DNA of 64,000 nt from Bacteroidota bacterium (GTDB lineage Bacteria; Bacteroidota; Bacteroidia; Flavobacteriales; Flavobacteriaceae). A model generated the notes under the pieces. It was not told the DNA's origin. It did no database searches and saw only the letters and a program-made list of their open reading frames with translations. The stretch is taken from contig JAHJTN010000005.1 of NCBI GenBank assembly GCA_018829465.1, positions 372,001 to 436,000 of the forward strand, given 5' to 3'. Shown piece after piece: positions 17,122 to 57,909 of the stretch; position 1 is the first letter of the stretch; the number at the start of each line of letters is the position of its first letter. The position numbers and the translations under genes are program-made.

Positions 17122-17853
17122 TCAATTACGCATTTTTTTTAAGTTTTCCTTAGCCTTTTCTCCCATTTGATCCAATTGTTTTTGAGTTACGAGTTTACCT
17201 TTAACAGGTTTTTCGATTTCGGGCAAAATTTCCGGATTGAAGTTTATATGGGTTGCATAGTAGAGGTAAGAAATTAAATTATTCGTCACACTTAATTCTA
17301 AAATGAGTCCGGGTAAATTTCCATATCCGGCTGGGCCAAACCTAAGGTAAACATCAGGTGCATACCATACAATTATTTCATAATTTACCTGCTCTAAAAT
17401 TGCTTTATAGCACACAAAAGCACCTATTGTTTTGGTTTCATCTGTTAGTTCCCAATTTTGAGCATCTAAAGCCGTTTTGAGCAAAACAGTAGTGCCGTAT
17501 GCCTCTAATTGGTGTAGTTTGATTTTTTCTGTTTGATCCGTATAATACACTCCATCACCACCTACTAGCGTGTAAGCAAATTTTGACAAGCTATTATTGT
17601 GGGTGTCCATGGAGTTGCTTGTCTTGAACAGACTTTTATTTCCGTTGATGAGCAACACAAAGGAACTTTCATTTAGAAAGTCTTTGGCCTCCAGAATTAG
17701 GTTTTCCAAATACGCGTTTCTATTTGCGTTCGTTTTTGGTTGTTGTTCATCAACGAAATTGATTTTGTATGCAATTGCAGCGGCGTTTTGCGGTAAAACC
17801 ACAAGCGGTACAAAAAGGAGTAAAAGCTGAAATATGTGACGGGGCTTTGGCAC
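17122..17853 (-). CDS. GLPGLI family protein (copy 1)
   Basis: A 243-residue exported protein of the GLPGLI family (TIGR01200), named after a conserved motif seen here as NLPGLILELS. A signal peptide (QLLLLFVPLVVLPQNAAA) is followed by the family pattern: WELTDETKTIGAFVCYKA, then IIVWYAPDVYLRFGP, the GLPGLI motif, and the C-terminal KPVKGKLVTQKQLD. The family has no established biochemical function. It lies 46 bases upstream of the large barrel gene. The motif order (oxidation-proof single Cys in CYKA, WYAP, GP.GY.GLPGLI) is shared by all five copies in the window. Confidence 0.88.
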   Translation of the reverse strand: MPKPRHIFQLLLLFVPLVVLPQNAAAIAYKINFVDEQQPKTNANRNAYLENLILEAKDFLNESSFVLLINGNKSLFKTSNSMDTHNNSLSKFAYTLVGGDGVYYTDQTEKIKLHQLEAYGTTVLLKTALDAQNWELTDETKTIGAFVCYKAILEQVNYEIIVWYAPDVYLRFGPAGYGNLPGLILELSVTNNLISYLYYATHINFNPEILPEIEKPVKGKLVTQKQLDQMGEKAKENLKKMRN

Positions 17854-17953
17854 GAAGTGAAATTTAGTGCAATGTAACTAATTTTTTAGTTACAAATTGT
17901 TAAATATCTATATAAAGTGAATTTAAGACCAAAATTTAATCATATAACTGAAT

Positions 17954-18691
17954 TCAATTTTTAATGTACTGTTTATATTTCTCAAATCCTTTTCTTTCAA
18001 ATTCATGATATTCATCTTTCGATATCAATTTACCTTTTAATGGCTTTTTAATTAAATTGATTTCATGATTTTGTTCAAACAATATTTTATCGGCATAAAA
18101 TGTCGCTTTGTTGGTTTCGAGTTCTAAAATTAGCCCCGGTAAACCGGTGTAATTAGCCGGCCCGAATGAATATGGAAGTTTTGGAGCATACCATGCAATT
18201 ACCTCAAATGTTTTTAAGCCCCTAATTGTAACGATTGTATCAACTGTTTTTGCTTTATAACAAGTGTATCCACTAATATTTTTGGTTTCATTTGATAATT
18301 CCCAACCAATATCTTTTATGTAGGATTTTATGAGAAAATGGTCAGAAGACAGGTATTTTTCATGTAACATAATCCCTTCTTTGTAATTCGTATAAACTTT
18401 ACCGGTAAAACTAAAAGATTGACCCAAACTCTTTGGCTGGTATTTACCATTATCTGCATTCATTTCTTCTATTAGCGAAAAAAATGACTCCGAATTATGG
18501 AATAAAAGTACATAGGTGAGTTTTTCCATTTCGTCAGAAATATTATTGATAAAATCGGCATCACTAGTTCTTAATTTTTCAGTAACTTTAATATTATTTC
18601 TGACTTTGTAATTAATTTCTGTTAGACTATGCTGAGCATAAGATAAATAACAGAAAATGAACAGTAGGGTTATAATAAATGATTTTCTCAT
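17954..18691 (-). CDS. GLPGLI family protein (copy 2)
   Basis: A 245-residue exported GLPGLI protein. The start at 18691 gives a proper signal peptide (MRKSFIITLLFIFCYLSYAQ); the frame extends nine codons further upstream without supporting features. Family blocks are GWELSNETKNISGYTCYKA, IAWYAPKLPYSFGP and NYTGLPGLILELE, ending with KPLKGKLISKDEYHEF. It follows copy 3 by 37 bases and precedes copy 1 by 100 bases on the same strand. The region from here to 20992 is visibly AT-richer than the housekeeping genes around it. Confidence 0.88.
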   Translation of the reverse strand: MRKSFIITLLFIFCYLSYAQHSLTEINYKVRNNIKVTEKLRTSDADFINNISDEMEKLTYVLLFHNSESFFSLIEEMNADNGKYQPKSLGQSFSFTGKVYTNYKEGIMLHEKYLSSDHFLIKSYIKDIGWELSNETKNISGYTCYKAKTVDTIVTIRGLKTFEVIAWYAPKLPYSFGPANYTGLPGLILELETNKATFYADKILFEQNHEINLIKKPLKGKLISKDEYHEFERKGFEKYKQYIKN

Positions 18692-18728
18692 GATAGTAAT
18701 TTTAAGTGAATCCAGCAAGGATAGAATG

Positions 18729-19493
18729 TTAGTTTTTTAAAAGGTTATGAAAATGTTCATATTTTGACTTCAACAAAGCGTTGTAATCCATTTCGGAAAT
18801 TCTGTCCCCTTTTTTAACTTCATAGAGATTTGCTATTTCAAAGTTCGCATCAAAAAATATATTAGTTGCAAAATATCGTCTTCTCCCGACTTCTTCAAGT
18901 TCAAGTATAAGCCCGGGCAATCCTGAGTAGCCAATCGGCCCTAAGGGAACATTTACACTTGGTGCAAACCAAGCAACAACTTCTATTTTTTGTTTTTTAT
19001 TGTTCTTATCATAGAAGTAATTAGCGGCTGTAGCTCTGTAACATTTTATACCTGAAATCTCCTTAGTCTGTGACCCTAAAGTCCAATCAAACCTATTAAG
19101 TGTGTAAACAACATGAAAGTCAGTACCTAAATCTTTTTTTAAAACTACAACCTCATTCATCTGTGTGTTGTAGAAATAATCATCGCTCACATCAAGTAAT
19201 ATTGTAGCCAAATTAAATTCAAGATTATCTTTTTTGTCTGATGAAGAAAGGGCATCCGCAACCTGAAAAACGCCCTTTCCCTTATCATAATACAAAATCA
19301 TTTCAATGTCTGACATCGCTTCAAATAATTTATCTGTTTTACTAGTAAATTTAGATTGCTTTTGATTATTTTCTTTACGAGCGACATTAGCTTTATAGAC
19401 TACTTCTACTTTTCTGTTTTGGGAAAAAAGAGACGCAAAAGACAAAGTCAAAATAAAGCAAAGTGATACACAAAAACTATCCCTCGTTTTCAT
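18729..19493 (-). CDS. GLPGLI family protein (copy 3)
   Basis: A 254-residue exported GLPGLI protein with signal peptide (CFILTLSFASLFSQ). The diagnostic blocks are WTLGSQTKEISGIKCYRA, VVAWFAPSVNVPLGP and GYSGLPGLILELEE. It begins only six bases after the stop of the 87-residue small secreted protein, so the two are translationally coupled, and it precedes copy 2. An extra charged stretch (KDNKNKKQK-like, residues 153-164) between the Cys block and the WFAP block distinguishes it from copies 1 and 2. Confidence 0.88.
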   Translation of the reverse strand: MKTRDSFCVSLCFILTLSFASLFSQNRKVEVVYKANVARKENNQKQSKFTSKTDKLFEAMSDIEMILYYDKGKGVFQVADALSSSDKKDNLEFNLATILLDVSDDYFYNTQMNEVVVLKKDLGTDFHVVYTLNRFDWTLGSQTKEISGIKCYRATAANYFYDKNNKKQKIEVVAWFAPSVNVPLGPIGYSGLPGLILELEEVGRRRYFATNIFFDANFEIANLYEVKKGDRISEMDYNALLKSKYEHFHNLLKN

Positions 19494-19499
19494 AAAATC

Positions 19500-19763
19500 C
19501 TAGATAAAACAATTACCATTTTGCGTGCATTCGCAGGACTCGTAAATATTGTTTAGCATTAATACCTGATGTGACAAAGATAATTCAAATCCAAGATCGC
19601 TCTCAACATCTTCTAAATACTCAATTGAATATAAAAAACAATCAGCATATAGAGCAGATTCAGTTTTAGATGTATCAAAGTTTTTAAGTCGAGAAAATTC
19701 GGTTGAGTGTCCAAAACTCCCCAAAGCCACAACCGCCACGGCGGTTAAAATTACTTTTTTCAT
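19500..19763 (-). CDS. Small secreted Cys-containing protein of the GLPGLI cluster
   Basis: An 87-residue protein I do not recognise. The N-terminus is a strong signal peptide (MKKVILTAVAVVALGSFG) nearly the same as that of the small gene at 20642-20992 (MKKLFFTAVAVLAF). The mature part is acidic and carries four cysteines, three in a tight C-terminal group (SCECTQNGNCFI) and one in YADCFLYS. Each of the two small genes is directly followed by a GLPGLI gene; here the gap is six bases. The size, leader similarity and Cys-rich tail suggest a secreted peptide handled by its GLPGLI partner, but this is inference. Confidence 0.65.
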   Translation of the reverse strand: MKKVILTAVAVVALGSFGHSTEFSRLKNFDTSKTESALYADCFLYSIEYLEDVESDLGFELSLSHQVLMLNNIYESCECTQNGNCFI

Positions 19764-19815
19764 GGTATTTTTAAAAATAGAATATTTTTCAAAATCACAA
19801 AAACTATAAAGTATG

Positions 19816-20589
19816 CTAATTTTTTTCTAACATCTTTTCATTATCACTTTTATCAATGTCTTTCAACCAATTCAAATATTCAATTTGACTAATCTTTGTA
19901 CCTTTTGTAGGTTTTGAAATCTTATTAAATTCTGTTTGTACTTTCTCAATTTTCTTTGCATAATAAATAAAATTTCCGAAATGCAACTCTATGATTAGAC
20001 CTGGTAAGCCGTTAAACCAAAGTGGTCCGAAATTACTATTAATATCAGGCGCAAACCATGCTTCAACAGTAATTTCAACTATATTGTCATGAGAGTCCAA
20101 TGTTTTAAAAGACCTAGTCGCCTTGTAGCAGTTAAAGGATGAAATAATTTTAGTTTTATCTGAAATAAACCAACTCTCATCAGATATACCATAATCTATC
20201 AAAAAAGATTTATTATAACTTTTTCTGAAATTTAAAACCTCTCCTGATGTGTTGTTTACATATACTTCTCCGATATTTTTCGCATTAATAACAAATATGT
20301 TTGGATCAATAATATTATCTGACGACATAGAATAATTGGAGTAGAAAAAAGACTCTTGTGTATTGTAAAGCAAAGTAAAAGCAACCTTTGTAGGGTCGGA
20401 AGACTCAATTATGGTTAGTAAAAAAGAGTTTATTTCGCGATCTTTTATTTTATTGGTATCTATAACGTTTTGATATCTTGATGAAATACCATATTCAACC
20501 TTTGTTACATAATTTTGGGGTTCTTGGCCAAATATTTTTGTAATATTAAAAACAATTGCGAAAAGTAAAAACAAAACGAAGTCTTTCAT
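19816..20589 (-). CDS. GLPGLI family protein (copy 4)
   Basis: A 257-residue exported GLPGLI protein with signal peptide (FVLFLLFAIVFNITKIFG). The family blocks are ESWFISDKTKIISSFNCYKA, VEAWFAPDINSNFGP and WFNGLPGLIIELHF. It follows the 116-residue small secreted protein across a 52-base gap that holds a perfect 12-bp hairpin. Downstream lies the second small gene. The alternation small-GLPGLI-small-GLPGLI points to gene-pair duplication followed by strong divergence. Confidence 0.88.
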   Translation of the reverse strand: MKDFVLFLLFAIVFNITKIFGQEPQNYVTKVEYGISSRYQNVIDTNKIKDREINSFLLTIIESSDPTKVAFTLLYNTQESFFYSNYSMSSDNIIDPNIFVINAKNIGEVYVNNTSGEVLNFRKSYNKSFLIDYGISDESWFISDKTKIISSFNCYKATRSFKTLDSHDNIVEITVEAWFAPDINSNFGPLWFNGLPGLIIELHFGNFIYYAKKIEKVQTEFNKISKPTKGTKISQIEYLNWLKDIDKSDNEKMLEKN

Positions 20590-49728: not shown

Positions 49729-52266
49729 ATGAACAGGTTAGTCACACTACTCATGTTTTTTACGGTCTTTTTGTCACAGGCACAGAACGATTATTTTTTT
49801 CCAAAAAACCTCAGTTTTGACCCCAATATCCCAAGCCCCGAACAGTTTTTGGGCTATCCCATTGGGGAATGGCACACACGCCACGACCGAATTGTGGCTT
49901 ATTTTGAGACATTGGCCCAGCTTTCTCCAAAAGCTGAAGTTTTCAACATAGGCAAAACCAACGAGCACAGGCCTCAGGTTTATCTGTTGATTTCTACGCC
50001 CGAAAATCTTTCCAACAAAGAAAATATTCGCCAACAGCACTTGAAAGTAAAAGAACCTAATACCGCTGCCAATACTGCTGAACCGCTTATTATACAGTTG
50101 GGTTACGGCGTGCATGGCAATGAAGCTTCTAGTGCAGAGGCCGCTATGTTGGCTGCTTATTATTTGGTAGCCGGGCAAGGCACGGAAGTGGAAACGTATT
50201 TAAAAAACGCCCTTGTTTTTATAGAACCGGTACTAAATCCGGACGGACGAGACCGGCATACCCTTTGGGTAAACGCAAGGCGAGGCATCCCGCCCGTGAG
50301 TGATCCTTTGGACTCCGAACACCAGGAAGCTTGGCCGGGCGGACGAACCAACCACTATTGGTTTGACCTCAACCGTGATTGGCTACCTTTGGCACAGGTG
50401 GAAAGCCAAAACAGGGTTGCCTTTTTTCATCAGTGGCTGCCCAATGTGGTCACGGATTATCACGAAATGGGAACAGACGCTACCTATTTCTTTGAACCCA
50501 CCAAAAAATACAGCTCCGAAAATCCAATCATCCCCAGATATCACTACGATGTGATCAACGCCACCTATGCCAAGTATTTTCAGGAGGCACTTGACGCCTA
50601 CGGTGCGCTGTATTGGTCTCGTGAGGTTTTCGACAATTCCTACCCGGGCTATGGCTCAACCTATCCGGACATCCACGGCGGACTCGGCATCGTGTTTGAA
50701 CAAGCGCGGTCTGAAGGTCGCATACAAAATACCACTACAGTTCCGTTGGAATTCAAATTTGCCATCAGAAACCACTTGCGCACAAGCATCGCCATACTGA
50801 AAGCCACTTTTGAAAACAAGGAAATGATGCAATCGTTTCAAAAGCAGTTTTTTACGGATGCCTACAACCAAGGAAAAAAAGAAAACGCGTACCACGTTTT
50901 TGGCGATGACAAGGATGCAACCCGTACACAAAAATTCGTAGAACTACTTCGAAAACATCAAATAGAAACCTACGAAATCAGTGAAAATCTTTCTGCAAAC
51001 GGATACAACTTTAAAAAAGGCAGTGCCTACGTGGTGCCTACAGACCAACCCCAATATTTGATGGTACGTTCGGTATTTGAAAACGTTAAACAGTTTCACG
51101 ACAGTGTTTTTTATGACACCTCTGCCTGGTCTATGGCATTGGCATTCAACATGCCACATGCTGTGGTAAAGCAAACTAAAAACCTAAAAGGGACTCAAGT
51201 AACCTCCGAAAATTTGCAAAAACCAGTACCCGAAGTCAACAAAGCTTCTTATGCCTATGTGGTAGATTGGGCAGATTATAACGCACCGCGATTCTTATCG
51301 CAGTTGCTGCAAAAAGACGTTTTTGTTAAAACGGCTTTTAAACCGTTTCCCGCCAAAACAAACAAGGGAGACAAAAACTTCGGTTATGGCAGTTTGATGA
51401 TTTCCGTAACAGATCAACGGTTGGACCAACAGGCACTTCACACAGCTGTTTCCGAAGCGGCAAAAGCTGCTCAAATTGAGGTTTACACCGTAGAAACCGG
51501 TTTGAATCTGGGTGGTATAGACTTGGGCAGCCGCAACTTTAACACTGTACAAAAACCGAAAGTTTTGATGCCCATAGGCGATGGTATTAGTGCCTACGAG
51601 GCCGGGGAAATCTGGCATTTGCTCGATACCCGTGTTGGCCTACCTGTCACCAAAATTGACGTTTCCGATTTGCGACGCGTCAACCTTTATGATTACAATG
51701 TATTGGTTTTGGTTTCCGGAAATCACAACCAGCTCAACAAAGACAAACTCAAGGATTGGATCAATGCCGGTGGCACATTGATAGTGCAACGCAGTGCTAT
51801 ACAGTGGGCTATCCGAAACGGCCTGACGACTGCCACACTCAAAAAAAACGAAACCAAAGCAGATAGTTTAGGCAGAGGGAACTATGCAGAAGCCCAAGAT
51901 TTTTACGGTGCCAAAGAAACCGGCGGGTCTTATTATGAAACCACTTTAGACATCACGCACCCTGTGGGTTTTGGCTACACAAACCCTAAACTGACGGTTT
52001 ACAGAAACAGCAACGTGTTTTTAAGTCCCGGAAAAAACAGGTTTGGCAAAGTGGCACTCTACACCACCAATCCGCATATCAGCGGTTATGTGCATACAGA
52101 GAACCTCAATGTCATCAAGAATTCGGCTTCTATTTTGGCACATACACAAGGGAGTGGCTCGGTTGTTTTGTTTGCGGACAATCCGAATTTTCGCGGATTT
52201 ATGTATGGCACCAACAAAACCTTCCTAAACGCCTTGTTTTTCGGCTCGCTTATTTCATCGGAGTAG
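49729..52266 (+). CDS. Exported M14 family metallocarboxypeptidase
   Basis: An 845-residue exported zinc carboxypeptidase. After a signal peptide (TLLMFFTVFLSQAQ) the M14 domain shows zinc ligands His129 and Glu132 (GVHGNEASS), VLNPDGRDRHTLWVNARRG, the third ligand region (VVTDYHEMG) and catalytic Glu in GIVFEQARSEG. A long C-terminal part is of the glutamine-amidotransferase-like fold (VLMPIGDGISAYEAGE, LVLVSGNHNQL). The last 17 codons plus stop are special: 49 bases of them recur perfectly at 57861-57909, so the gene's 3' end was either supplied or duplicated by the downstream island. Confidence 0.92.
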   Translation: MNRLVTLLMFFTVFLSQAQNDYFFPKNLSFDPNIPSPEQFLGYPIGEWHTRHDRIVAYFETLAQLSPKAEVFNIGKTNEHRPQVYLLISTPENLSNKENIRQQHLKVKEPNTAANTAEPLIIQLGYGVHGNEASSAEAAMLAAYYLVAGQGTEVETYLKNALVFIEPVLNPDGRDRHTLWVNARRGIPPVSDPLDSEHQEAWPGGRTNHYWFDLNRDWLPLAQVESQNRVAFFHQWLPNVVTDYHEMGTDATYFFEPTKKYSSENPIIPRYHYDVINATYAKYFQEALDAYGALYWSREVFDNSYPGYGSTYPDIHGGLGIVFEQARSEGRIQNTTTVPLEFKFAIRNHLRTSIAILKATFENKEMMQSFQKQFFTDAYNQGKKENAYHVFGDDKDATRTQKFVELLRKHQIETYEISENLSANGYNFKKGSAYVVPTDQPQYLMVRSVFENVKQFHDSVFYDTSAWSMALAFNMPHAVVKQTKNLKGTQVTSENLQKPVPEVNKASYAYVVDWADYNAPRFLSQLLQKDVFVKTAFKPFPAKTNKGDKNFGYGSLMISVTDQRLDQQALHTAVSEAAKAAQIEVYTVETGLNLGGIDLGSRNFNTVQKPKVLMPIGDGISAYEAGEIWHLLDTRVGLPVTKIDVSDLRRVNLYDYNVLVLVSGNHNQLNKDKLKDWINAGGTLIVQRSAIQWAIRNGLTTATLKKNETKADSLGRGNYAEAQDFYGAKETGGSYYETTLDITHPVGFGYTNPKLTVYRNSNVFLSPGKNRFGKVALYTTNPHISGYVHTENLNVIKNSASILAHTQGSGSVVLFADNPNFRGFMYGTNKTFLNALFFGSLISSE
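52214..52262 (+). repeat. Left 49-bp direct repeat (M14 3' end, att-like)
   Basis: The repeat runs from ACAAAACCTTCC to TTCATCGGA and encodes TFLNALFFGSLISS of the M14 protein. The match to the right copy is perfect over 49 bases and breaks at one synonymous position (GAG/GAA) before the stop. Confidence 0.9.
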
Positions 52267-52293
52267 GTTTTAAAAGAAAATACATCAGAAAAG

Positions 52294-53178
52294 GTGAAAC
52301 AAAATCACCCCCTAAAATCCTCAATTATTTTACTCGAGAATGTGTTTTTTCATCTAAAAAAACACAACAGAAAAGGGTTTGCTCAGGTTTTGGCAGAAAA
52401 AGAGCTCAGCCATTCAGCTGCAACCATCAGCAGGTTACTAAAATTTATAGAGGATACATTTGGGATAGTTCTGGATTTTCGTGGAGAGAACGGACAAGTT
52501 CAGCTTGTTGAAGCAGATGAAAATGTAAGTCGATATCAATTCGTAAAGTCTTTATTGCTTTGGGGTAGATTGAAGCACCAACAAGAATGGGTTTCATCGG
52601 GTTTGATTTCGTTTACCACCGAAAGCAGGTTGCGAAATTTTGAATATATCTTAGAAGTGTATGAGGCCATTTTGAAGAGTAAGATGCTGAAAATTAAGTA
52701 TCAAAAATTTTATTTAGAAAAAGAAGAAATTCGGATCATCAAACCTCGGTTACTCAAAGAATATTTAGGCCGTTGGTACCTTATAGGCGAAAAAAACGAT
52801 GGCGAAATAAGGGTGTACGGCATAGACCGAATTACAGATTTTGAGGTGCTAAACCAACGCTTTGATCCCGATCCTAAATTTGCCGAACTTTATAAAAATA
52901 CCATTGGCGTCAACTATTCCGGTCGTGTAGAACAGGTACTCTTAAAAGTTGAACCATACCAGTTGCAACTCTTCGAGACCTATCCCATCCATCCAAGCCA
53001 AGAAATTATAGAGAAGCACAAAAACGAAGGTTTATTGGCATTGAAAGTGGTGATTAATTACGAATTTGAACAGCTTTTGGCTTCCTATTTAGACAAGGTT
53101 TCAGTAGAGGCTCCCGAATATTTAAAGCAAAAAATGCTGGCCCATTTTAAAAAAATGACAGAAAAATATCAAAAATAA
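52294..53178 (+). CDS. WYL-domain transcriptional regulator
   Basis: A 294-residue regulator that starts with GTG 28 bases after the M14 stop. An N-terminal helix-turn-helix (residues 10-60; LAEKELSHSAATISRLLKF) is followed by a WYL domain (residues 125-195: KIKYQKF, PRLLKEYLGRWYLIGE, YGIDRI) with the name-giving residues at 161-163, and a C-terminal WCX-type extension. Such proteins bind nucleic-acid-derived ligands and often repress phage-defence genes (BrxR, CapW). A perfect 7-bp-arm palindrome just after its stop, in front of the next gene, is the likely operator. Confidence 0.88.
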   Translation: MKQNHPLKSSIILLENVFFHLKKHNRKGFAQVLAEKELSHSAATISRLLKFIEDTFGIVLDFRGENGQVQLVEADENVSRYQFVKSLLLWGRLKHQQEWVSSGLISFTTESRLRNFEYILEVYEAILKSKMLKIKYQKFYLEKEEIRIIKPRLLKEYLGRWYLIGEKNDGEIRVYGIDRITDFEVLNQRFDPDPKFAELYKNTIGVNYSGRVEQVLLKVEPYQLQLFETYPIHPSQEIIEKHKNEGLLALKVVINYEFEQLLASYLDKVSVEAPEYLKQKMLAHFKKMTEKYQK

Positions 53179-53185
53179 TTTTTTC

Positions 53186-53204
53186 ATGCTCACAAAATGA
53201 GCAT
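53186..53204. promoter_or_regulatory. Operator-like palindrome between WYL and DnaB-like genes
   Basis: ATGCTCA-CAAAA-TGAGCAT, perfect 7-bp arms around 5 bases, 8 bases after the WYL gene stop. It ends 9 bases before a promoter box, so a bound protein would cover the -33 region. The WYL protein is the obvious candidate ligand. Confidence 0.65.
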
Positions 53205-53213
53205 TTAGGCTAA

Positions 53214-53221
53214 TAGCTTTG
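53214..53221 (+). promoter_or_regulatory. Predicted -7 box of the DnaB-like gene
   Basis: TAGCTTTG matches TAnnTTTG and lies 19 bases upstream of the ATG at 53241, directly downstream of the palindrome. Confidence 0.6.
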
Positions 53222-53240
53222 CGGTATAAAACCCAAAGTT

Positions 53241-54020
53241 ATGCAATTGGAAAGTGCGTTAGAAAAATTATCTCAGACCCGTAAAGGCTTTCATGACCAA
53301 CTTTTAAAACGAGGCAAAGTCATTTCGGGCATAAAAAATCTTGACAAAGCCCTGTTGGGATTTGATGTTCATCAGTCCTACACCTTAGTAGGCAGGCCCG
53401 GAAACCTTTTACATACTTTTACCGCAACCATTGCGAGCAACATCGATGTGCTTTACCATGCCCACCAAGTTATTTTAAAGCAAAAACCTCATGATAAAAA
53501 AGATGAATTAACGTTAAGGAGATATTGGCAATTTTTAGACCATTTTAAATTGGTCAACGACTATTCAGAAATTTTTGATATTCAAAACCTGCCAACACTG
53601 CAACGGAAACACGAGCCTGTTTTGTTGATAGCCGACATCAACCTGTTGACAGAAAACCAAATAAAAACCATTAAGGTCCTTTGCCAAAATTGGGAGCAAA
53701 ATAAAGTTTTGGTTTTTTTTCTGTTTCTCTTGAAGGAGGGAAGTACCGAACCCATAAGGATGGATGAGCTGCCACCCAAAATTACAAACCACTCGGATGT
53801 TATCATCTCGTTGTTTCGACCGGAATATTACAAAATTGACACTTGGGAGGATGGAACATCGACCCAAAACCAATTGGAATTCTCGGTTATAAAAAACTCC
53901 AGAGATTACCATCCCAAAGGCAAATTATGGATAGATGTGGAAAAGAAAAGGCTTAAATCGGAGCACTACTCTTTATTACAAAAATGGAGCAGAAAAATAC
54001 AAGAAAATACAGGTGGATAA
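53241..54020 (+). CDS. DnaB-like (SF4) protein with degenerate ATPase site
   Basis: A 259-residue protein that resembles only the C-terminal RecA-fold domain of replicative helicase DnaB. Aligned landmarks are ISGIKNLDKALLGFDVHQS (as in the DnaB linker-P-loop region), VGRPGNLLHTF at the P-loop, PVLLIADINLL at Walker B, SDVIISLFRPEYY, and LEFSVIKNSRDY followed by GKLWID. The P-loop has lost its GKT/S residues (NLLHT instead of xMGKT), so ATP binding and hydrolysis should be lost or altered. The N-terminal DnaB domain is missing. It could bind DnaB hexamers or phage helicases as an inactive subunit. It is controlled with the WYL gene's operator upstream. Confidence 0.68.
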   Translation: MQLESALEKLSQTRKGFHDQLLKRGKVISGIKNLDKALLGFDVHQSYTLVGRPGNLLHTFTATIASNIDVLYHAHQVILKQKPHDKKDELTLRRYWQFLDHFKLVNDYSEIFDIQNLPTLQRKHEPVLLIADINLLTENQIKTIKVLCQNWEQNKVLVFFLFLLKEGSTEPIRMDELPPKITNHSDVIISLFRPEYYKIDTWEDGTSTQNQLEFSVIKNSRDYHPKGKLWIDVEKKRLKSEHYSLLQKWSRKIQENTGG

Positions 54021-54189
54021 AAACGCACTGATTCCCGCACTAAGTTTATATGAGAATCTTTATTTGCTAATTCATGATAAAGACATTGCAAAATAACAAT
54101 GACACATCTTAACGGACTTGCATTTTAACCTTTTCAGCAATAGAATAATAAGATTATAGACAATAATTTAATAACCAAAAGTATTTTTT

Positions 54190-54840
54190 ATGGAAAAGAA
54201 AACATTATCGAATATTTTGGAAGGAAAGATCTTTCAAATTCCAGACTACCAAAGAGGTTATGCTTGGGAAGAAAAGCAATGGAAAGACTTTGTTCAAGAT
54301 ATTGATGCACTGATAGACGATAAAATTATAAGCCATTACACGGGGACTATTGTAATTTATCAACCGCGCAACAAACCAACCGAAAATTACGGAACAAAAA
54401 GACTTGAAGTCGCAGATGTTGTTCACGGACAGCAAAGATTAACAACTTGTAGCATTTACTTGTCCATCATCATCAAAGAACTCATCAAAATCGGTCAAGA
54501 CGGCTTTAATGCTAAAATCCCAATTTACCTTTATTCGGGGAGTAAAAGCAGGCTAAGACTAAACAACGACACCGCGGACTTTTATTTAGATTTAATTTCC
54601 AAAGGCGTTAGTAACCTGGAGGCGAGCGCTGTGCATCAAAAAAGGATTTACGATGCATACTGCTTTTTGAAGAATAATATTTCAGCACAATTGGCAAAAA
54701 AACTTGACAAGGGCGAAGATTATTTAAGAGATTTATTTGATGCCATAATCCGAAAGCTTAGTTTTTCTTTTTATCCCATCGAAGAAGAAAGCGAAATCGG
54801 AATGACCTTTGAGTTAATGAATTCAAGAGGGAAAAACTAA
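54190..54840 (+). pseudogene. Truncated DUF262 (GmrS/ParB-like NTPase) gene
   Basis: A 216-residue product containing only the N-terminal part of a DUF262 protein: the opening FQIPDYQRGYAW (residues 15-26) and the motif GQQRLTT (80-86). Full proteins have 500-700 residues; this one stops inside the conserved FELMNSRGK block, after which relatives continue. In addition, the Asp of the invariant DGQQR is His79 here. DUF262 proteins act in type IV restriction (GmrSD) and other phage-defence systems. The gene is likely a decayed defence component. About 130 bases of non-coding sequence follow before the next gene. Confidence 0.7.
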
Positions 54841-54971
54841 AGCAAATACTTTGAAAATAGAACATTTGCGACACTTAAACCCTACACAACAAAAAGTATA
54901 AATCCGGTGCATTGTTTAACTGAGTTGTGGTTTGGTGAATACTATTAGAACTAAAATAAATTTTAAACCTT

Positions 54972-55595
54972 ATGGTCAAAATACTAGCCTTTAACAACCT
55001 AAACGACAGCTCAGCACAAATTCTGAAATCTGTTTATAAAGATTGTAACAAGTATAAAAACAGGCATACGGCCTTTTTGTCAACGCGATTAAAACTGGAC
55101 GAATTTTTAGTGATAACCGAACAACAAGAAGCGCAATTGGTATATGATTTTACTGAGAAAACCGAAAAGGGAGGCCATTTAAACGCTTCCATTTCAATCC
55201 TTTTAAATTCTCTTCTGTTTTTAGATTTGCCCGATAAATCGCTTTACCGTGCCGACGACGGCGTTATAGATATTGCACACCTCCGCAAAATGATTATTCC
55301 TTTAAAATATCGCCATAAGGTAAAGGACATCTATATAGATAATTTTTATCAAGTTACCTGCAACTTAATGGGGAGGAATTTAGTTTGGGAGCCCAAGAAT
55401 ACAACAGATATAAAGGTTTGGAAGGACAGACAAATGGAATACAAAATGGCCTTATTATTTTACATGAGCAGAAAATTTGACCTCAACTTTTATATCGGTA
55501 TGGAGCAAACTTCACTCGAGCAAAAACCCAGACATATCAAAGGTCTTACCTTTGGCAATACCTTTGATATGGTAGATGAAATTGATTATCGATAA
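54972..55595 (+). CDS. Unknown island protein, family X member A
   Basis: A 207-residue cytosolic protein that I do not recognise. It aligns along its length with the product at 57248-57859: LDEFLVITEQQEAQLVYDF matches LSDFLRITGHKAEHLVYDY, GHLNASIS with SLLFLDL matches RYLNANIS with SLLFFDL, and MIIPL-KDIYIDNF-TCNL matches MLIPL-RNLYITNF-TFNL. It has no signal peptide, membrane helix or obvious catalytic motif. Two diverged copies flank a nuclease-like gene and its small neighbour in one island, so a role in defence or in a toxin-antitoxin type balance is possible. Confidence 0.6.
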   Translation: MVKILAFNNLNDSSAQILKSVYKDCNKYKNRHTAFLSTRLKLDEFLVITEQQEAQLVYDFTEKTEKGGHLNASISILLNSLLFLDLPDKSLYRADDGVIDIAHLRKMIIPLKYRHKVKDIYIDNFYQVTCNLMGRNLVWEPKNTTDIKVWKDRQMEYKMALLFYMSRKFDLNFYIGMEQTSLEQKPRHIKGLTFGNTFDMVDEIDYR

Positions 55596-55698
55596 AGCCA
55601 TGCAATGCCTTAGGCGTGCCAATTGTAGTGTAAAAAGATATTTTAAAGGCAATTTAAAAAAATAATAATTTTAACCCGTTGGGTGAAATAAGTAAATT

Positions 55699-56031
55699 AT
55701 GGAAGAAATAAAAATTGAACAGTTTATATTATCATATAACGGAGGAATTTACTCCATAGAATTTAATTTAGAAGGTGAAAATTTCATGATAAATGTGGAC
55801 ATATTACCAGAAAATTTAAATGAATTATGGAAAAAGGAAGGTTTTAATTCAGAACAAGAATCAGATCCTTTTATTTTGTATAAGCAAACATTCAAAGAGT
55901 CAATTTTAAAAATATCAGTTTTTCGAGATGATGACAATAAAATAGATGGATTTTTAACAACTGAATATGCAGATAATCTACAAGATAGAGGGATTTGCTT
56001 AATTTATTGCGAAGTTGAAAAAGCAAATTAA
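55699..56031 (+). CDS. Small protein paired with the PD-(D/E)XK gene
   Basis: A 110-residue acidic protein without a recognisable domain. It ends seven bases before the start of the PD-(D/E)XK gene, so the two are co-translated. Size, acidity and tight coupling fit an antitoxin or immunity partner for a nuclease, but a simple accessory subunit is equally possible. The sequence is AT-rich, like the nuclease gene and unlike the M14 gene upstream. Confidence 0.6.
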   Translation: MEEIKIEQFILSYNGGIYSIEFNLEGENFMINVDILPENLNELWKKEGFNSEQESDPFILYKQTFKESILKISVFRDDDNKIDGFLTTEYADNLQDRGICLIYCEVEKAN

Positions 56032-56038
56032 ATAAACT

Positions 56039-57208
56039 ATGGAATCAAATATTCGAACAATTGAAACACTACTGAGTCAAGTTGCAACCATATCAGATAG
56101 TTATGAAAAAGTGGCACAAGCCACAGGAGATAATTTTAATATTTTTACTGTACTAAGGATTGAGCATTATGAAGAACAAACACACTCTCGATTCATTGCA
56201 GAACTGTTAAATCCGAAAGGCAGTCATGGATTTGGAAGTGTTTTTTTAAATGAATTTTTAAATGAATTGGGAGAGAAAAATCATATTAAAACTGAAAGTG
56301 CAAATGTTTATGTAGAAAAAAGTATTGGTCCGAGAGATGACTTGAAGCGTACAGGAGGTAAAATTGATATTCTAATTGAAGATGATGAATCAAAAAGGAT
56401 TATCATTGAGAATAAGATATATGCGACCGAACAAGAAAACCAACTAGAAAGGTATCACAATTTTGATAAGAGTGCGAAATTGTTATATTTAACATTATAC
56501 GGTGAACTGAGTGAGAGTGAATTTGATGAAAAAAATTATATACCTATTTCATATTCAGAGTTCATCATTAACTGGCTTGAAAGATGCCAAAAAATAGCAG
56601 TTGAAAATCCTGTTGTAAGAGAAACCATCAAACAATATAAAAACCTGGTAAAAAAATTAACTAATCAAAATATAAATAATGAAATGAATAAAGAAATTTT
56701 AAAACTAATTACAGGTAGTGAGCGTTACTTCGACTCATTTATTCAATTGAATGGGTTAAACGTCAGAGACGAGATTATTAATAATACTATAAAACCAATT
56801 TTAAAAGAAGTAGCAAATAAATACAATTTAAAATATGAAATACACCTAGGAAAGTGGTCATGTTTTGGCTTTGGAAATGATAAAATAAAAGAAAAAAACA
56901 TCCATGATTTATTATTTAGCTCAAGCACTGCTATTGGCTTTACTAATATAGTTTATGGTTTTAGGCCATTAAATGAAAGTGAAAGAAATAAAGAAATTGA
57001 AGATAAAATAAAAGTATTGTTCAGCGAAAAGTTTGAAACCTATCAAGGAAATGGATATCAAAATTGGATTGCGTTAGGATTTTTTGACCCCTACAGAAAC
57101 TGGGAAGATTTAAAAGTCTTGAAAGATATATATTTTGACAGTGAAAAATTCAAAACTAACATAGATGAAAAAATAGGAGGAATGTTGGAGATAGTAGATA
57201 AATTATAA
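56039..57208 (+). CDS. PD-(D/E)XK nuclease family protein (PDDEXK_4)
   Basis: A 389-residue protein with the PDDEXK_4 layout. The N-terminal family block (NIFTVLRIEHYEEQTHSRF, then ELLNPKGSHGFG) is followed by the catalytic core: Asp110 in GGKIDILIED, Glu124 and Lys126 in IIIENKI, and Gln135 in EQENQLERYH. The D-ExK-Q set is complete, so metal-dependent nuclease activity is likely. The C-terminal 180 residues are unassigned and may bind the target. Proteins of this family are found in defence islands, with few characterised members. It follows a 110-residue gene by seven bases. Confidence 0.83.
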   Translation: MESNIRTIETLLSQVATISDSYEKVAQATGDNFNIFTVLRIEHYEEQTHSRFIAELLNPKGSHGFGSVFLNEFLNELGEKNHIKTESANVYVEKSIGPRDDLKRTGGKIDILIEDDESKRIIIENKIYATEQENQLERYHNFDKSAKLLYLTLYGELSESEFDEKNYIPISYSEFIINWLERCQKIAVENPVVRETIKQYKNLVKKLTNQNINNEMNKEILKLITGSERYFDSFIQLNGLNVRDEIINNTIKPILKEVANKYNLKYEIHLGKWSCFGFGNDKIKEKNIHDLLFSSSTAIGFTNIVYGFRPLNESERNKEIEDKIKVLFSEKFETYQGNGYQNWIALGFFDPYRNWEDLKVLKDIYFDSEKFKTNIDEKIGGMLEIVDKL

Positions 57209-57247
57209 AGTCTAAATTCCCATTAGGTCTAAATTTAATACACTACC

Positions 57248-57859
57248 ATGATTAAACTATCAACCTCCCATAACCCCAAAAAACAAGCCGAAAAAACACT
57301 CCAACACCTCTATAAACGCTGTACAGAACACCCAAACAGCAATACTTTGTTGGTTTCAAAAGACCTTTCCTTGTCCGATTTTCTGCGTATCACCGGGCAT
57401 AAAGCGGAACACTTGGTGTACGACTATACCGGCATTTCCAAAAATGGCCGCTACCTAAACGCCAACATATCTTTACCGCTGTCCTCTTTGTTGTTTTTCG
57501 ACCTGTTCGACCTAAGTTTTTTTAATGACCAAGCCGAAGATGGAAATTTAGAAAACTTTCAAGTACAGCAAATGGTGTTGCAACACCTCAACAAGCCACC
57601 CGAAATACAACCTCCCTTTCACATAGTTCGCCTCCGAAAAAATTTACATGTAAACAGCCTGGAGCAAATGTTGATCCCGCTCACTCAAAAATACAACCTG
57701 CGCAATCTCTACATCACCAACTTCAACGACCTCACGTTCAACCTATGGGCAGGGCAAACTCACTCAAAAATGGCAAAACTTGAGGCAATCTGCGAAGCCT
57801 TAAACCTTAACGTCCACGTTTGGATAAACGAAGACCAAAACGAGCAACTAAAAAATTAG
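57248..57859 (+). CDS. Unknown island protein, family X member B
   Basis: A 203-residue cytosolic protein homologous to the product at 54972-55595 (see shared blocks DFLRIT, HLVYDYT, YLNANIS, SLLFFDL, IPL, YITNF). Compared with member A it has an insert around residues 92-127 (DQAEDGNLENFQ and following). Its stop codon lies one base before the right direct repeat, so it marks the end of the island cargo. Its base composition is less AT-rich than that of the nuclease gene before it, so the two may have entered the island separately. Confidence 0.6.
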   Translation: MIKLSTSHNPKKQAEKTLQHLYKRCTEHPNSNTLLVSKDLSLSDFLRITGHKAEHLVYDYTGISKNGRYLNANISLPLSSLLFFDLFDLSFFNDQAEDGNLENFQVQQMVLQHLNKPPEIQPPFHIVRLRKNLHVNSLEQMLIPLTQKYNLRNLYITNFNDLTFNLWAGQTHSKMAKLEAICEALNLNVHVWINEDQNEQLKN

Positions 57860-57860
57860 C

Positions 57861-57909
57861 ACAAAACCTTCCTAAACGCCTTGTTTTTCGGCTCGCTTAT
57901 TTCATCGGA
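57861..57909 (+). repeat. Right 49-bp direct repeat (displaced M14 3' end)
   Basis: Identical to 52214-52262. It keeps the reading frame of the M14 C-terminus through to GAA TAA, but has no upstream coding region, so it is the orphan end left by insertion. Confidence 0.9.

Follow-up and report, generated by a model that had tools for sequence, protein, structure and literature searches.

How did a short run of genes, set apart from its neighbours by base composition, come to lie at the very 3' end of a peptidase gene in a flavobacterial genome, and by what means could it move? We examined a 64-kb stretch of a contig from a member of the Flavobacteriaceae (64,000 nucleotides, here called the window) in which 49 bp from the end of a gene of the M14 zinc carboxypeptidase family recur downstream. 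Between the start of the left copy and the start of the right copy lies a unit of 5,647 bp, with a G+C content of 34.3%, where the flanks have 43.5% and 44.2%, a composition foreign to its surroundings. The answer that we favour, and hold to be probable, is that this unit is a CIME-type genomic island, integrated between att sites and without a recombinase of its own. The features on which the argument draws are as follows (positions are those of the window).

49729–52266, + strand: M14 zinc carboxypeptidase-family gene, 845 amino acids, its 3' end being the putative target (Pfam Peptidase_M14, E value 1.8e-15)
52214–52262, + strand: left 49-bp repeat, attL-like, forming part of the M14 3' end; the next bases are G TAG, keeping the Glu-stop
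52294–53178, + strand: WYL/WCX-domain regulator, 294 amino acids (Pfam WYL 2.5e-12, WCX 1.1e-5; PADLOC WYL 6e-21)
53241–54020, + strand: DnaB C-terminal-domain-like protein, 259 amino acids (hhalign against the DnaB core alignment, probability 98.2, E value 4e-14)
54190–54840, + strand: N-terminal half of a GmrSD-type (HEC-06-like) gene, truncated and frameshifted (Pfam GmrSD_N 5.5e-26; PADLOC HEC-06 1.1e-32)
54972–55595, + strand: orphan P207, a paralogue of P203 (BLASTP, 29% identity, E value 1e-16)
55699–56031, + strand: orphan of 110 amino acids, 25.5% G+C, with no family match
56039–57208, + strand: PD-(D/E)XK nuclease (PDDEXK_4), intact, the PADLOC phage-defence candidate PDC-S26 (Pfam 4.7e-35; PADLOC 3.8e-102 over the full length)
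57248–57859, + strand: orphan P203, 42% G+C, with a possible DnaB/KaiC RecA-type fold (AF2 model); a single base separates its stop from the right repeat
57861–57909, + strand: right 49-bp repeat, attR-like, a detached copy of the M14 3' end; the next bases are A TAA
57978–59030, − strand: exported endonuclease/exonuclease/phosphatase gene of the host flank (Pfam Exo_endo_phos_3 2e-121; synteny with L032 and L033)

The recurrence of the M14 3' end is perfect over 49 bp, as the initial annotation of the locus had claimed. Past these identical bases come one mismatch and then two matches, and the copies share nothing there but the TA of the two stops; both read on as Glu-stop, with the endings reported at the outset, GAG TAG on the left and GAA TAA on the right. 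The M14 gene, which is intact, has its last codons in the left copy. The right copy had been described as lying in the right frame and followed by a stop, and its codon order and TAA are indeed preserved, but it is a detached duplicate outside any reading frame in use, since the stop codon of the last cargo gene (57857–57859) sits 1 bp upstream of it. With an exact 49-bp pair expected about 1e-20 times by chance, the repeat is far beyond coincidence, and the window holds only one other exact 20-bp repeat (14362 and 21208). Inverted core-binding arms were sought inside the 49 bp, and none was clear. We rejected a decayed tandem paralogue of M14 as the source of the repeat, there being no homology past 49–52 bp.

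Relatives of the same genus show the locus in an unoccupied form. M14 orthologues were searched in 99 genomes, from which 15 regions were retrieved, and in two of the same genus (L032 and L033, one of the two contigs being PFUR01000019.1 from a Flavobacteriales metagenome-assembled genome) the exported-nuclease gene, convergent with M14, follows directly behind it at a spacing of about 140 bp. This is the empty site that had been proposed as a check on the island. Identity to the window at the protein level is 72% for M14 and 71% for the exported nuclease (71–72% overall), and the next two downstream genes are also conserved (75% and 70%). P203 and the PDDEXK nuclease are absent from both same-genus genomes, where the only WYL match is 25% identical, that is, non-orthologous. 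Hence either the island is an insertion here or both relatives have lost it; the first is the simpler account, and we prefer it because of the island's composition. Of the marks of a site-specifically integrated genomic island, the locus has the empty site in relatives and lacks an integrase of its own.

That lack, which the initial annotation had also stated, was borne out by family scans (Pfam, NCBIfam and PHROGs), which found neither a recombinase nor a recognisable integrase remnant in the island, and by tblastn of seven of the genome's recombinases against it, which gave no match. The genome's recombinases comprise Xer-like enzymes, one tyrosine recombinase of ICE/IME type and others on foreign-looking contigs. 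The ICE/IME-type enzyme (L213:8706–9971, contig C27) lies beside tRNA-Pro, tRNA-Ser and metal-related genes, probably as part of an integrated element in its own right. Within 58 kb no att pair turned up that could belong to this enzyme, and no link between it and the M14 site was seen. Of the genome's recombinases, considered as possible helpers, none could be tied to the M14 site. Serine recombinases sit on contig C25 (L216), which looks foreign to the genome with 58% G+C and plasmid-like genes, and C53 (L214), 3.3 kb long, carries an unusual integrase; both contigs may be contaminants of the draft assembly.

If the island is of the CIME type, a circular form would have entered the chromosome by site-specific recombination between its 49-bp core and the identical M14 3' end. 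The gene would owe its present end (GAG TAG) to the element, and the end that it had before (GAA TAA) would have been displaced to the far side. The enzyme would either have been lost from a larger parent element or be supplied by another element, and the island would now be mobile only where such an enzyme is present. Site-specific integration would account at once for the repeat and its position at the gene end, for the Glu-stop that is kept and for the empty sites. The att repeats of tyrosine recombinases are reported to span 8–60 bp, a range that includes 49 bp, and the 3' ends of guaA, trmE, yicC, rplL, rpmE, rpmG and rpsI all serve as targets (PMC5704250), so that the early view of protein-gene ends as unusual targets does not hold; the M14 peptidase gene would join those known to carry islands.

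Elements with the same architecture have been described, which places the island within an already known kind: CIMEs of 1.2–13 kb occur within composite islands at the 3' ends of rpmG, rpsI and fda (PMC7563491), and an 8,884-bp psi-SCCmec without ccr lies at the 3' end of rlmH (PMC4723332). Like the CIMEs of Streptococcus salivarius at the fda, rpsI and rpmG 3' ends (PMC7563491, PMC5704250), the island has attL/attR-like direct repeats at a protein-gene 3' end, falls within their size range and carries cargo only, free of recombination, mobilisation, conjugation or other transfer genes; unlike them, it occupies a site without a known parent ICE/IME or tandem partner, in a different phylum, and the att function of its repeats is putative. 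With the psi-SCC element lacking ccr at rlmH (PMC4723332) it shares a cargo enclosed by direct repeats at the 3' end of a protein gene, the missing recombinase and the kept gene end, but SCC repeats measure about 15 bp and are served by Ccr, whereas the 49-bp repeat here has no known enzyme, and rlmH is a proven hot spot, which the M14 end is not. With its M14 peptidase target and 49-bp repeat, in place of insertion at rlmH/orfX between SCC-type repeats, it is not itself a psi-SCC. SGI1 at trmE, GIsul2 at guaA and the MGIs at yicC (PMC5704250) resemble it in the type of target and in the preserved gene end, but each encodes its own tyrosine integrase. The locus offers a clean flavobacterial case of a putatively att-flanked island without a recombinase, and with empty sites at hand in two congeners, direct tests of excision, and of which enzyme is missing, become feasible.

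We scanned 95 M14 loci (two entries being the same contig), 79 of them with at least 6 kb downstream, and found a second copy of the gene's own 3' end, or another cargo there, in none of the 95. The best second-copy match in these loci reached 28 of 45 positions, compared with 44 of 45 in the positive control, the window itself. In this sample, then, the M14 end is no shared hot spot, nor did any of the loci scanned hold a related ICE/IME element at the M14 3' end. A search for other cargos between such repeats, as proposed at the outset, gave none at the M14 end of the other loci that we examined, which leaves the idea of a cassette site without positive support.

The identity of the two copies allows for a different origin. 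Congeners share 34 of the 49 bases in this region (69%) and differ at 15, whereas the copies in the window are 100% identical; either, therefore, the core derives from this species or one all but identical to it, or the duplication arose in situ. In the second case, the M14 3' end would have taken up foreign DNA through staggered-break repair, or through illegitimate or single-crossover homologous recombination, and 49 bp of the host would have been duplicated in the process, with no site-specific recombinase involved. Two copies derived from one host sequence would look as these do, and such an origin also agrees with the missing recombinase and with a site not reused in the loci scanned. The cargo is, moreover, a mosaic in G+C, at 25.5% in the 110-residue orphan, 28.8% in the PDDEXK nuclease gene, 36–38% in the WYL, DnaB-like, GmrSD and P207 genes and 42.3% in P203; this range of 25–42% suggests that the island was assembled stepwise, and it is what piecemeal capture would leave. 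We nevertheless consider duplication in situ unlikely, though a rival to be taken seriously. A 49-bp target duplication fits no known transposase, and the junction would have had to recreate the Glu-stop by coincidence, a purine followed by a stop having a chance of 2.8% at a random position of the island. The repeat also lies exactly at a gene 3' end, a position typical of att sites.

Quite improbable, in our assessment, is that the locus is an active satellite or cassette, along the lines proposed in the initial annotation, with a phage or ICE recombinase mobilising it in trans. Its small size, defence-like cargo and want of an integrase agree with that proposal, as does a genome that encodes at least one tyrosine recombinase of ICE/IME type, but this resident enzyme adjoins tRNA genes and one of the cargo genes is broken. 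Neither PHROGs nor Pfam revealed hallmark genes of phage satellites (PICI/PLE/P4-like), which are an integrase, primase/replication genes and genes for helper interference or packaging; the DnaB-core-like protein that the island encodes has lost its Walker-A lysine. Viral contigs gave no exact match to a 30-bp segment of the 49-bp core. An assembly artefact, in which a separate replicon or contaminant sharing the 49 bp was joined to the host sequence, is very unlikely too: the draft assembly has 55 contigs, two of which (C25 and C53) look foreign, but the island lies inside a 572-kb contig and a false join would still need inserted DNA that carries the M14 end.

Under the favoured CIME-type reading, phage defence is the probable role of the island's cargo, with its WYL regulator, its PDC-S26 nuclease and a GmrSD gene for type IV restriction that is broken. 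The seven defence-like genes counted at first correspond to seven open reading frames, six of which look intact; the GmrSD gene is the exception, its match covering positions 11–221 of 558 in HEC-06 (PADLOC) and its motif reading HGQQR in place of the usual DGQQR. The PDC-S26 nuclease occurs in 4 of 119 relatives (the genome under study included) and has no match in viral contigs. No RNA family match was obtained. Type IV restriction and defence islands are a known setting for WYL regulators (PMC9122601). As in the WYL-regulated BrxR/BrxU islands of that study, the WYL gene here adjoins a GmrSD-family gene and another defence candidate; unlike in those islands, BREX genes are missing, the GmrSD gene is broken and a DnaB-core-like protein is present.

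This DnaB-like protein has lost the Walker-A lysine, with GRPGNLLHT standing against ARPGMGKTA. Among 299 genomes of the family, a small DnaB-like protein scoring well above ordinary DnaB matches was found only in the window and in another genus (L079:7441–8208), where it likewise lacks the Walker-A lysine and lies near a WYL gene; plasmids and phages yielded none. The pairing of a WYL gene with a DnaB-core-like protein of this kind in two genera is a small lead towards a possible new defence or regulatory module.

P203 has no relatives besides its paralogue P207 in 397 genomes of the family, GTDB contigs, viral contigs and plasmids, and a P203/P207 profile found one weak match, with two internal stops, in 345 genomes of the phylum. 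The AF2 model of P203 (pLDDT 59, pTM 0.62) matches DnaB, RadA and KaiC (Foldseek probability 1.00), and against 2vye it gives a VIA Z of 12.4 and an rmsd of 3.3 over 137 residues. The P207 model is poor (pLDDT 40), and hhalign detected no sequence link of P203/P207 to DnaB or to the DnaB-like protein, so that the possible DnaB/KaiC-type fold of P203 depends on one middling model and is offered as a low-confidence lead. A bolder conjecture, to which we give very little credence, is that the 259-residue protein, and perhaps P207 and P203, are catalytically dead mimics of the DnaB core under WYL control that would join or block the replicative helicase ring of phage or host, borne along with a nuclease on a small island whose movement would depend wholly on borrowed recombinases at a protein-gene 3' end.

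Elsewhere in the window, positions 17122–20589 encode four related secreted proteins in tandem, each of about 250 amino acids, with a GLPGLI-like motif in common.
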